Positions 6,251 through 42,754 of a stretch of DNA of 42,851 bases are shown here, in pieces. Under the pieces are notes generated by a model that did not search any database, was not told where the DNA came from, and was given only the letters and a program-made list of their open reading frames with translations. Source of the stretch: Syntrophaceae bacterium UBA1163 (lineage in GTDB: Bacteria > Desulfobacterota > BSN033 > UBA1163); assembly GCA_002311635.1 (NCBI GenBank), contig DBZJ01000079.1:1-42851 (forward strand). The letters run 5' to 3'. How positions within the stretch are numbered: the first letter of the stretch is position 1; each line of letters begins with the position of its first letter. The position numbers and the translations under genes are program-made.

Positions 6251-7621
6251 TCACGATCTTTGTACTTTCCTGGATGCCTGTTCGGCCGCAATTAAGATTG
6301 GATCAAACGGTGCTGAAAAAGGAGGGGCATAGGCAAAATCCAGCCTTGAAATTTCATCCACCGTCATTTTTTGGTGGAGCGCCACTGCCAATGCATTGAT
6401 CCTTCGAGCCACTCCTTCCTTTCCTGCCATCTGGGCTCCTAAAAGCCTTCCGCTCTGTCGATCAAAGATCAGTTTGATCAACATCTGCTTTGATCCTGGC
6501 ATATAGCCCACCTTGGATTCAGCCTCGATCACCTGTGAATCCGCATCAAAGCCATATTGTCGTGCCATCTGCATCCCTAAACCGGTAAAGGCCACCTCCA
6601 ATTCAAAGACCTTGAAGGCCGCAGATCCCACCACACCGGAAAAGGTAGCGTTACCTCCTGCGGCGTTTTCACCGGCAGTGCGGCCCTGTTTATTGGCGAT
6701 GTCTCCAAGAGGTGTATGAACCCAGTCTTGACTTACAAGGTTGAAAACTTCACAGCAGTCTCCCGCGGTATAAATATCTGCAAGATTAGTCCTTTGAGCC
6801 ATGTCAGTCCGAATCGCTCCCGTCTTTCCAAGTTCAGCGCCTGCCTCGTTGGCTATCTCCACATTTGGGATAACGCCCACGGCCATCAGAATCATGTCTG
6901 CCGGAAAGTGAGTTTGGTTCGTCTCAAGAGAAGTAACCTCCCCATTGCTATCCAATCTAAAAGCGGCTGGTTCCTGATAGGTGATGAAGTGAACACCGTT
7001 TTCCTGTAATGCCTTTAATATTTTCTCAGAGATTTCCTTCTCTAAATTTCCTGCCGGCAAATCCCTCCGGCAGAATAGAAAGGTTTCCAGATTCCTCAAC
7101 CGAAAAGCCTCGCACATCTCCAATCCAATAAAACCCCCACCGAGAATGGCTACTTGTCCCGGCCTCTTTTCATCGATATAGTTTTTGATACGGAGGCCAT
7201 CCTGAAGGTCTTTGAGGGTGAAAATATTCTTGGCATTGCTTCCGGGAATGTTAAGGCGTCTGGAACGGGCACCCGTGGCAATGATAAGTCGGTCGTAAGA
7301 AAACCATTGAGTTTGGGAGTTAGCCAAATTCACTACCTCGATCCTTTTCCCCTTCGGATCAATTTTTGTGACGCGGTGTTCTGTCTTCACATCAATATCC
7401 TGCATCTCTTTAAATTGCTGAGGGGTTCGAACCACCAATTTTTTCTGATCTTTTACTACATCGCCGATGTAGTAGGGGGTTTCTCATGAGCCATAGGAGA
7501 TGAATCGACCTTGCTCGAACATGGCCACTTCGAGATCAGGGTTAACTCGCTTCGCTCTCGCTGCTGCGCTGGGTCCTGCCGCCGAACCGCCCAGTATGAC
7601 AAGTTTTGCTCTTCTTGACAT
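6251..7621 (-). CDS. CoA-disulfide reductase/NADH-oxidase-like flavoenzyme, selenoprotein (Sec46)
   Basis: The frame has one internal TGA at 7484-7486; read through, it gives a complete 456-residue FAD/NAD(P)H disulfide oxidoreductase. GGSAAG near residue 11 binds FAD, GGGFIGLEMCE binds NAD(P)H, YTAGDC is the second FAD motif, and the C-terminal dimer domain ends with LDFAYAPPFSAPFDP. TGA falls at SYGS-U-ETPYYIGD, exactly where relatives have the single redox cysteine (Cys44 in 18565-19908, Cys47 in 27150-28904). A 9-bp hairpin follows it. Start ATG at 7621 has AGGGAG 6 nt upstream. The expected reaction is reduction of a disulfide, persulfide, polysulfide or oxygen with NAD(P)H. It closes the large NifU/MinD operon. 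Confidence 0.88.
7454..7474 (-). promoter_or_regulatory. Candidate bacterial SECIS hairpin, flavoenzyme gene
   Basis: Nine nucleotides after the in-frame TGA (7484-7486) lies a perfect 9-bp stem, TACTACATC / GATGTAGTA, closed by a GGC loop. The loop starts 19 nt after the TGA and begins with G, which fits the known bacterial SECIS pattern (short apical loop with a G in its first two positions, about 16-37 nt from UGA). It would recruit SelB-GTP-Sec-tRNA. Confidence 0.85.
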
Positions 7622-7651
7622 ATTCATCTCCCTAATATTAAAAATGGAAGC

Positions 7652-9058: not shown

Positions 9059-9104
9059 ATTTCACTACCGATCTGTGCAAGCCAAACTGGCTGCTTAACT
9101 ATCC

Positions 9105-9383
9105 TCAGGAGGGCGCTTTAAAGATGAGTGTATCTCCGTCGTTTAAGGATGTCTGCATACGGTTTTCAGAAAGGTAGGTTGCTCCATTAAGAAGCACCCG
9201 AATGTCCAGATCGATATCTCCATTTTTATCCAGAAGAAACTTTTTCACTTCGAATCCAAATTTTCTTACCATGGCATCGATCAACTCCTTTAGAGTCTTC
9301 CCAAGAAATTCGAATTCTATCTTCTTGTTCTTCCCAAAGGTCTTATAAAGGGGTAATCCTGCTATCTCGATGTTAACCTTCAT
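9105..9383 (-). CDS. MoaD/ThiS-family ubiquitin-like protein without diglycine tail
   Basis: A 92-residue beta-grasp protein. EFEFLGKTLKELIDAMVRKFG, in part, and ATYLSENRMQTSLNDGDTLIF follow the MoaD pattern (strand, helix, then NGxxxxxxxxxxLxDGDxxxxxxP). The usual C-terminal GG that is adenylated and thiocarboxylated is absent: the protein ends FKAPS. Either it is processed, or it has lost sulfur-carrier activity, or it serves another purpose. The ATG at 9383 has GGAGG with 8-nt spacing; the longer frame from 9422 is not needed. Confidence 0.75.
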   Translation of the reverse strand: MKVNIEIAGLPLYKTFGKNKKIEFEFLGKTLKELIDAMVRKFGFEVKKFLLDKNGDIDLDIRVLLNGATYLSENRMQTSLNDGDTLIFKAPS

Positions 9384-9461
9384 CTTCTTTGCCTCCTTTT
9401 TGTCATCACCACTCTGTCTCAACCAAAAAAGAGAAGCATGGACTAAATTTGTTGCAAGAAT

Positions 9462-41934: not shown

Positions 41935-42735
41935 TTAAGGGGTTACTCGATAGGAAAGAATGTGTTGGCCGAAGTTGCCTGCTTGATCGACGGCGAGGAT
42001 CTGAAGCTTCACCTGATCAAAGTTTCCTGGAGGGGATGCCTCCCCTTCGAAGAGGCTTGGTTTTCCTGCATAATTTAAATTAAATTTTCCCGAAACCTTA
42101 TCTCCATCAACCCACTGCCCCCATATCTCAAATTTATTCGCATCCCAGAGACCTCCGGGAGTGACGGGGCATCCTCAAAGCATCCTGACTTCAGCCCTCG
42201 CGAAAGCTTTTTCTCCTGCCTTTAGACTTTCTTTCGGGGAAGGGCTTAGGATGTTGACAATCAATCCGTTTAACTCGATGATTACGCCTTCGCCCGTGAT
42301 ATGCTTTCCAGGAATGAGGAGCATTGTTTTTGAGCCTTTTTGAACAGATTGAGGATAGGCAAGAGGACCTTCTGCATCTATCTCGACTTGAGTTGGTCGT
42401 TCCAGCGGGATCTTGGCCTCGAAGGAAGCTGCACCAAAGGTTCCATAGATGACCTCTCCACGCTGGTGCGGTCGAATCATGATACGATCTGTACTACCGG
42501 CCCCTCCTTCCTGTTTTCCCTCTGCGAGGATTTCTCCAGTCTCCAGATTCTTGATTCGAACGAGTGCACCGCCAACCCCTGACCCAATCAACTGGGCATC
42601 TCTTGCAGCCACACGGACGACCACTTTTGTGATAATCTTTTCCGCAGAAAAAGATGGGGGGACAAAACAAATAACGAGACATATCGAGATCAAAAGGGTA
42701 TGGATAACCTTTAGCCTGATTCTTGACCCTATCAT
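41935..42735 (-). CDS. Secreted beta-rich protein, candidate selenoprotein with Sec-Gly-Cys motif (Sec187)
   Basis: From ATG 42735, a signal peptide (LKVIHTLLISICLVICFVPP, ending FSA) and beta-rich domain run 186 residues to TGA at 42175-42177. The same frame then continues protein-like for 79 residues to TAA: GCPVTPGGLWDANKFEIWGQ and later FDQVKLQILAVDQAGNFG. TGA-Gly-Cys gives a Sec-Gly-Cys motif in the context VRML-U-GCPVTPGG, like a CxC redox pair. A 7-bp hairpin with GGTC loop follows at the right distance. The product would be a 266-residue periplasmic or secreted thiol/selenol protein of unknown function. A plain 186-residue product is the alternative. Confidence 0.8.
42143..42160 (-). 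promoter_or_regulatory. Candidate bacterial SECIS hairpin, secreted-protein gene
   Basis: Fourteen nucleotides after the TGA (42175-42177), a 7-bp stem TCCCGGA / TCTGGGA (one G-U pair) closes a four-base loop GGTC. The loop starts 22 nt after the TGA and begins GG, matching bacterial SECIS geometry well. Confidence 0.8.
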
Positions 42736-42754
42736 CGACGCCTCACCTATCTCT

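Follow-up and report, generated by a model that had tools for sequence, protein, structure and literature searches.

Does the in-frame TGA at positions 42175-42177 of the window (i.e., the whole stretch of 42,851 nucleotides analyzed here, which is contig 176 in a draft genome of 4.08 Mb) end a protein of 186 residues, or is it read as selenocysteine (Sec) within a longer, exported one? A sequence-only reading had proposed the latter, a secreted selenoprotein with a Sec-Gly-Cys motif, and had left the strand unstated. The TGA is present as codon 187 on the minus strand, in a frame that opens with an ATG at 42735, runs for 186 codons to the TGA, continues with GGA TGC CCC (Gly-Cys-Pro), and reaches a TAA at 41937-41935 after 79 further codons in all; the cysteine noted two residues past the TGA is Cys189, following Gly188. 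We estimate a probability of about 0.9 that this is a selenoprotein gene in which UGA187 is read as Sec, judging from the comparisons described below. The features of the locus are as follows.

41935..42735, minus strand: whole predicted selenoprotein gene, 266 codons plus TAA, with UGA codon 187 as Sec.
42742..42747, minus strand: Shine-Dalgarno-like GGTGAG, 6 nt 5' of the ATG, recognized from the letters only.
42643..42735, minus strand: probable N-terminal signal peptide, residues 1-31 (ending PSFSA), with a hydrophobic helix at 4-23.
42271..42639, minus strand: N-terminal beta-sandwich domain (residues 33-155), the AlphaFold2 model of which loosely resembles prealbumin/CnaB.
41938..42267, minus strand: C-terminal Ig-like beta-sandwich domain, residues 157-266, with the U-G-C-P motif.
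42175..42177, minus strand: in-frame TGA, predicted Sec187; the aligned codon is TGA in 5 further distinct loci and codes for Cys in 25.
42169..42171, minus strand: Cys189, which would pair with Sec187 in the UGC motif; conserved in at least 90% of the rows of a 27-row alignment.
42143..42160, minus strand: SECIS-like hairpin with a stem of 7 bp, one of them G-U, and a GGTC loop placed 21 nt past the UGA.

The contig extends just 116 bases 5' of the ATG, and the 3' neighbor is a convergent isochorismatase-family gene. By itself the open frame of 79 codons is weak evidence, with a chance of about 8% if TAA and TAG alone count as stops. The reading goes beyond chance because homologous loci can be aligned to the frame past the TGA, 25 with a Cys codon and five others with a TGA at the same place; the protein-like continuation that had been claimed is thus present.

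Homologues were found at E 0.001 in 8 of 99 genomes comprising the own genome and its relatives, and in 32 of 395 genomes of a phylum-wide sample, some of these matching a short C-terminal part only. Identity is 63-69% within the genus; outside the genus but within the phylum, the longer matches have 34-47%. The distribution of the gene is patchy: no match was obtained in one congener (G004), nor in the 12 same-family genomes searched outside the genus. Two further database records came from a 'Deltaproteobacteria' MAG (the same gene as in congener G002) and from a Thermodesulfovibrionia (Nitrospirota) MAG. Position 187 could be read as DNA in 31 distinct loci (L017-L050, where L017, L022 and L027 represent a single gene, the window itself appears as L019, and no row was obtained for L050) and is TGA in six, namely the window, L018, L020, L021, L022 and L031, and a Cys codon (TGT/TGC) in 25. 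Five of these 25 (L026 and L046-L049) match over a short stretch or are uncertain, and chance may explain L046, which sits inside a long frame. Both states occur even within one genus, g119, where L031 (genome G371) has TGA and L030 (genome G261) has TGT. An in-frame UGA with conserved coding downstream and Cys in the homologues was therefore found at this locus. Homologues with the Cys and a GCP..PGG-like continuation, for which the sequence-only reading had asked, do exist; the Cys is seen in 25/25 non-TGA loci and in 120/120 of the database proteins listed for a profile of the mixed alignment. Columns U/C187, G188, G224 and G256 are invariant among the 27 aligned rows, and C189, P190 and W197 are among those conserved in at least 90%.

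Codon changes among congeners extend this picture past the TGA. Third-codon-position changes account for 26 of 49 changes downstream and 102 of 178 upstream in L020, for 43/80 and 103/188 in L021, and, over a shorter stretch, for 11/27 and 96/181 in L022; over half of the downstream changes are hence at third positions, as upstream, in two of the three comparisons. One congener copy (L022; L017, 5560-5718) is frame-broken 33 codons past the TGA, with its tail recognizable in another frame. In distant homologues, the C-terminal domain is also found alone.

The 7-bp hairpin with a GGTC loop that had been described 3' of the TGA is present at 42160-42143 (TCCCGGA-GGTC-TCTGGGA) and starts 14 nt past it. 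The published bSECIS model asks for a stem of 4-16 bp, a loop of 3-9 nt with a G in its first two places, a spacing of 16-37 nt, and a minimum free energy of at most -7.5 kcal/mol (PMC13188914). With 7 bp, GGTC, 21 nt and -9.3 kcal/mol, the hairpin lies within all of these constraints; a bSECIS check had been suggested by the sequence-only reading. An identical hairpin (7 bp, GGTC, -9.3 kcal/mol) is found in the window and in three congeners, i.e., in all four read. The hairpin of L031 differs (GACTCC-GGGC-GGAGTC, 17 nt, -8.3 kcal/mol) and also lies within the constraints, while that of L018 (TAACCC-CGGGC-GGGTTA, 16 nt, -5.9 kcal/mol) misses the energy cut-off as a simple stem. None of the 19 Cys homologues tested (of 25) reaches -7.5 kcal/mol, the best attaining -6.2; weaker stems do occur in the same stretch of some of them, e.g., in L030 at the same place with -2.5 kcal/mol. 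Of 1000 synonymous shuffles each, 11, 4, 6 and 5 equal the hairpin in the four congeners, 59 do so in L031, and 113 in L018. Fourfold sites with a shared amino acid are unchanged among the four congeners at 5/5 places within the hairpin vs. 8/55 elsewhere. Plain shuffling gives unexceptional z-scores for the four congeners (-0.7 to -0.9), -2.3 for L031 and -1.9 for L018, with values of -2 or below also in some Cys homologues. By the synonymous comparisons, the hairpin is conserved beyond coding need.

The host very likely decodes UGA as Sec, as had been supposed: SelA, SelB, SelD and tRNA-Sec were all found in its genome. The curated cut-offs are exceeded by selA (643 bits; passed by 1 of 14 control genomes), selB (364 bits; 2 of 14) and selD (386 bits; 2 of 14), the last with an in-frame TGA of its own, and tRNA-Sec scores 81 bits (5 of 14 control genomes pass) and is called by ARAGORN as tRNA-Sec with anticodon TCA. 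As a marker for coupling between the family and Sec use, selA was rejected: it is over the cut-off in 28 of 29 chosen genomes, yet also in 89 of 98 relatives at large, and presence of the family is therefore not a specific tracker of Sec use.

The claim of two other Sec-type genes in the window stands firmly for one. A CoA-disulfide-reductase-like FAD oxidoreductase at 6254-7651 (minus strand) has an in-frame TGA at 7486-7484 (residue 56), which is spanned by Pyr_redox_2 and by NF007123 (410.6 bits, under the cut-off of 458). CoA-disulfide reductase is a catalogued selenoprotein family with the motif UGxP (PMC13188914); the motif in the window is U-E-T-P. For the second gene, the candidate is a MoaD/SAMP-like ubiquitin-fold gene at 9102-9422 (minus strand) with a TGA at its C-terminal end, and its identity with the gene originally meant is uncertain. 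Here TGA is the penultimate codon (..FKAPS-TGA-GGA-TAG), and the model TIGR01687 matches at E 6e-8, under its cut-off. The end S-U-G-stop recurs in every genome of the genus that gave a match, four in all (G000, G001, G003 and G004; G002 has none), each time with a hairpin just 3' of the stop (loops GTT, GGG, GGA and GGA, 17 nt from the UGA) that folds with -8.1 to -10.7 kcal/mol. Distant MoaD-like homologues (L112, L113, L115 and L121) have ..GG at the same end and stop there or soon after. The protein could be a sulfur carrier with C-terminal Sec-Gly, in which Sec would replace Gly rather than Cys.

That the TGA is an ordinary stop, leaving a protein of 186 residues and a leftover frame downstream, is suggested by database proteins. 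The sequence-only reading had itself named homologues that end at the TGA as evidence against a selenoprotein, and such proteins do occur: with the read-through protein as query, 1,339 proteins match at E 0.001, and 120/120 of those listed end one residue before Sec (..ML), while a query with the Nitrospirota Sec form finds 444 proteins, of which 65 of 120 listed end in ..MI, 54 have CGC, and one (P0242) has Trp. The frame-broken congener copy would fit a stop as well. Against this stand the homology of the downstream frame to full-length Cys proteins, i.e., all 120 proteins listed of the 1,335 found with the mixed-alignment profile (115 with CGCP, five with CGCT), the predominance of third-position changes in two of the three congener comparisons, and the structural model, in which a stop at 187 would truncate the C-terminal domain after its second strand. 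At the DNA level the frame runs on homologously in 6/6 of the distinct TGA loci read, and the database ends therefore look like gene-calling truncation; they are most simply taken as an annotation artefact, an interpretation drawn from the DNA of these six loci. We regard an ordinary stop as very improbable. Slightly more improbable still is a reading of UGA as Cys or Trp by an altered code or an unusual tRNA: the homologues do have Cys, and in P0242, a relative of L018, Trp takes the place of Sec, but the genome holds Sec machinery including tRNA-Sec(UCA), and the hairpin is kept beyond what coding would need. P0242 branches beside the Nitrospirota Sec rows of a tree and therefore may be a TGA rendered as Trp by the gene caller.

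This tree was built by a quick method from 86 rows with columns cut before Sec, the truncated rows being labeled Sec by inference; it comprises 25 loci, 10 of the 120 proteins listed for the read-through query, 20 of the 120 for the mixed profile, 15 truncated proteins (of 65) and 15 Cys proteins (of 51) from the Nitrospirota-form query, and P0242. Three Sec/Cys changes suffice on it, and the starred branches force at least three, whereas shuffled labels average about 25. Sec rows fall into three places that are kept apart by starred branches, each with at least one TGA locus read from DNA; one of these places is L031 alone.

With UGA187 read as Sec, the following mechanism can be envisaged. 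SelB, which would bind the hairpin starting 14 nt downstream, and tRNA-Sec would decode UGA187 under its direction, and the chain would then be exported, probably by the Sec pathway, as a two-domain beta-sandwich protein. Export is suggested by the leader sequence, by the helix in the model, and by similar leaders in full-length homologues. In a confident AlphaFold2 model, the protein consists of two beta-sandwich domains, and U-G-C-P lies in a loop of the Ig-like one, after the strand of residues 177-185; the N-terminal domain modeled alone reaches a pLDDT of 78, with a middling second structural look, and the C-terminal domain is Ig-like by structural comparison of the model. A search for sequence relatives with a solved structure yielded no clear one. 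The C-terminal domain would thus display Sec187-Gly-Cys189-Pro in a loop, and Sec187 and Cys189 might be the working site, forming a reversible selenenylsulfide for which the CxC disulfide of CsgC could serve as a model. CsgC is an Ig-fold periplasmic protein in which an invariant CxC joins the BC loop to strand C, with a measured potential of -139 mV, and a relationship to DsbD's redox-active Ig domain has been reported (PMC3173608).

The likeliest role, tentatively assigned from motif, modeled fold and analogy, would be that of a periplasmic selenol/thiol-disulfide redox protein. Gene neighbors gave no operon clue in a clustering of the ORFs of 23 stretches, which comprised the last 17.9 kb of the window, L017, L018, and 20 further loci with at most 17 kb each: no other ORF cluster is common to more than 5 of the 23, a comparison in which most neighbor genes lacked annotation and the family gene was in the ORF set of 17 stretches, those of L056, L063, L064, L067, L068 and L069 being missed and their neighbors left uncompared. 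Congeners G001 and G002 have four upstream genes in common, the window and G002 two downstream, and G003 differs. As no conserved gene partner was found, the redox role is argued from motif and fold.

The main rival to a redox role is a selenoprotein whose U-G-C site binds a soft metal (e.g., Cu, Hg or Cd) or a metalloid for periplasmic trafficking or scavenging without redox function. Among the selenoprotein families catalogued in Table 1 of the review, several have names that relate to metals (PMC13188914). A distant homologue, L048, has CGMP in place of CGCP. Cys/Met swaps are typical of soft-metal sites. However, the second Cys is conserved in at least 90% of rows, and no recurrent gene cluster was seen next to the family gene, with most neighbors lacking annotation; on balance we find metal binding unlikely, if less so than a mainly structural or chaperone function, in which the U-G-C pair would form a permanent Se-S bridge in the Ig-like domain. 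Ig-like folds are indeed frequent in structural and binding proteins, among the structural matches as in general, but the three or more Sec/Cys changes on the tree suggest a selenium chemistry worth keeping or gaining, which a bridge would not need, and we consider the structural role rather improbable.

As regards known families, a review of May 2026 catalogues 119 prokaryotic selenoprotein families or subfamilies (PMC13188914), and none of its rows, as far as the available text goes, fits the protein, rows lacking a model being judged by name and motif. Its Table 1 gives a UGC motif for DUF1573 and for a TlpA-type protein, neither of which fits (PMC13188914). An NCBIfam scan at E 1 matched no model to the window protein and, for four homologues, a single non-selenoprotein model at E 0.2; in Pfam, no match to the protein exceeded its cut-off. 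The nine new families of deep-Sep are unlike it by name or domain, as set apart by the descriptions in the accessible part of that paper (PMC12013277), and the NCBIfam scan matched none of the models that the review gives for several of them. No description of the family was found in the literature, within open-licence papers. The statement that the protein lies outside the known families thus holds against the available part of the 119-family catalogue, with one caveat: GOS_A, a hypothetical protein of 2008, comes with no accession or model for comparison in the part of its source that was available (PMC2398784). We rate the family as nameless, widespread and new, set apart from catalogued families partly by description, and with GOS_A aside.

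Some known proteins resemble it in part. DUF1573 (PF07610) has the same [C/U]-G-C-[T/P] motif in a similar stretch and is catalogued as UGC (PMC13188914), and a Sec form exists in the same phylum (L099 of genome G023), where SUGCT replaces SCGCT. However, hhalign aligns just 11 columns around the motif with a probability of 5%, the domain layout differs, and PF07610 is not among the Pfam matches at E 1, or at E 0.5 for 10 members of the C-terminal domain. DUF1573 matches in further relatives (L090, L093, L094 and L100) also hold a TGA somewhere. The TlpA/Prx-like selenoprotein (cd02966) has the UGC motif too, but is thioredoxin-like by its domain label (PMC13188914), whereas the family described here is a beta-sandwich in the model. 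CsgC and the N-terminal domain of DsbD are periplasmic, redox-active Ig folds in which a CxC pair lies close to the BC loop (PMC3173608), and the modeled window protein has an Ig-like C-terminal domain with a CxC-type motif; no sequence relationship to either appeared among the matches listed, and CsgC is absent among the 50 structural matches listed, which is uninformative either way. Our best guess is that the protein is laid out like CsgC, and no kinship is claimed. The C-terminal domain of sulfite oxidase/dehydrogenase and the C-terminal Ig domain of a Cellulomonas mannanase match as generic Ig-like sandwiches with 17% and 10% identity, and we know of no motif in common with them.

A broader and somewhat more tentative proposal is that this large exported family (1,339 proteins at E 0.001) might carry a U/C-G-C-P redox or capture site on an Ig-like rather than a thioredoxin fold, might have switched between Sec and Cys three times or more, and might form, together with Sec-containing DUF1573 proteins, a periplasmic 'CGC-loop' class that is truncated in annotation. 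The stop of 120/120 listed best relatives just before Sec indicates a systematic annotation error. The predicted bacterial selenoproteome would gain a widespread family that is extracytoplasmic and probably outside the thioredoxin fold, and its natural Sec/Cys pairs, one of them within a single genus, may help to learn what selenium buys in the cell envelope.
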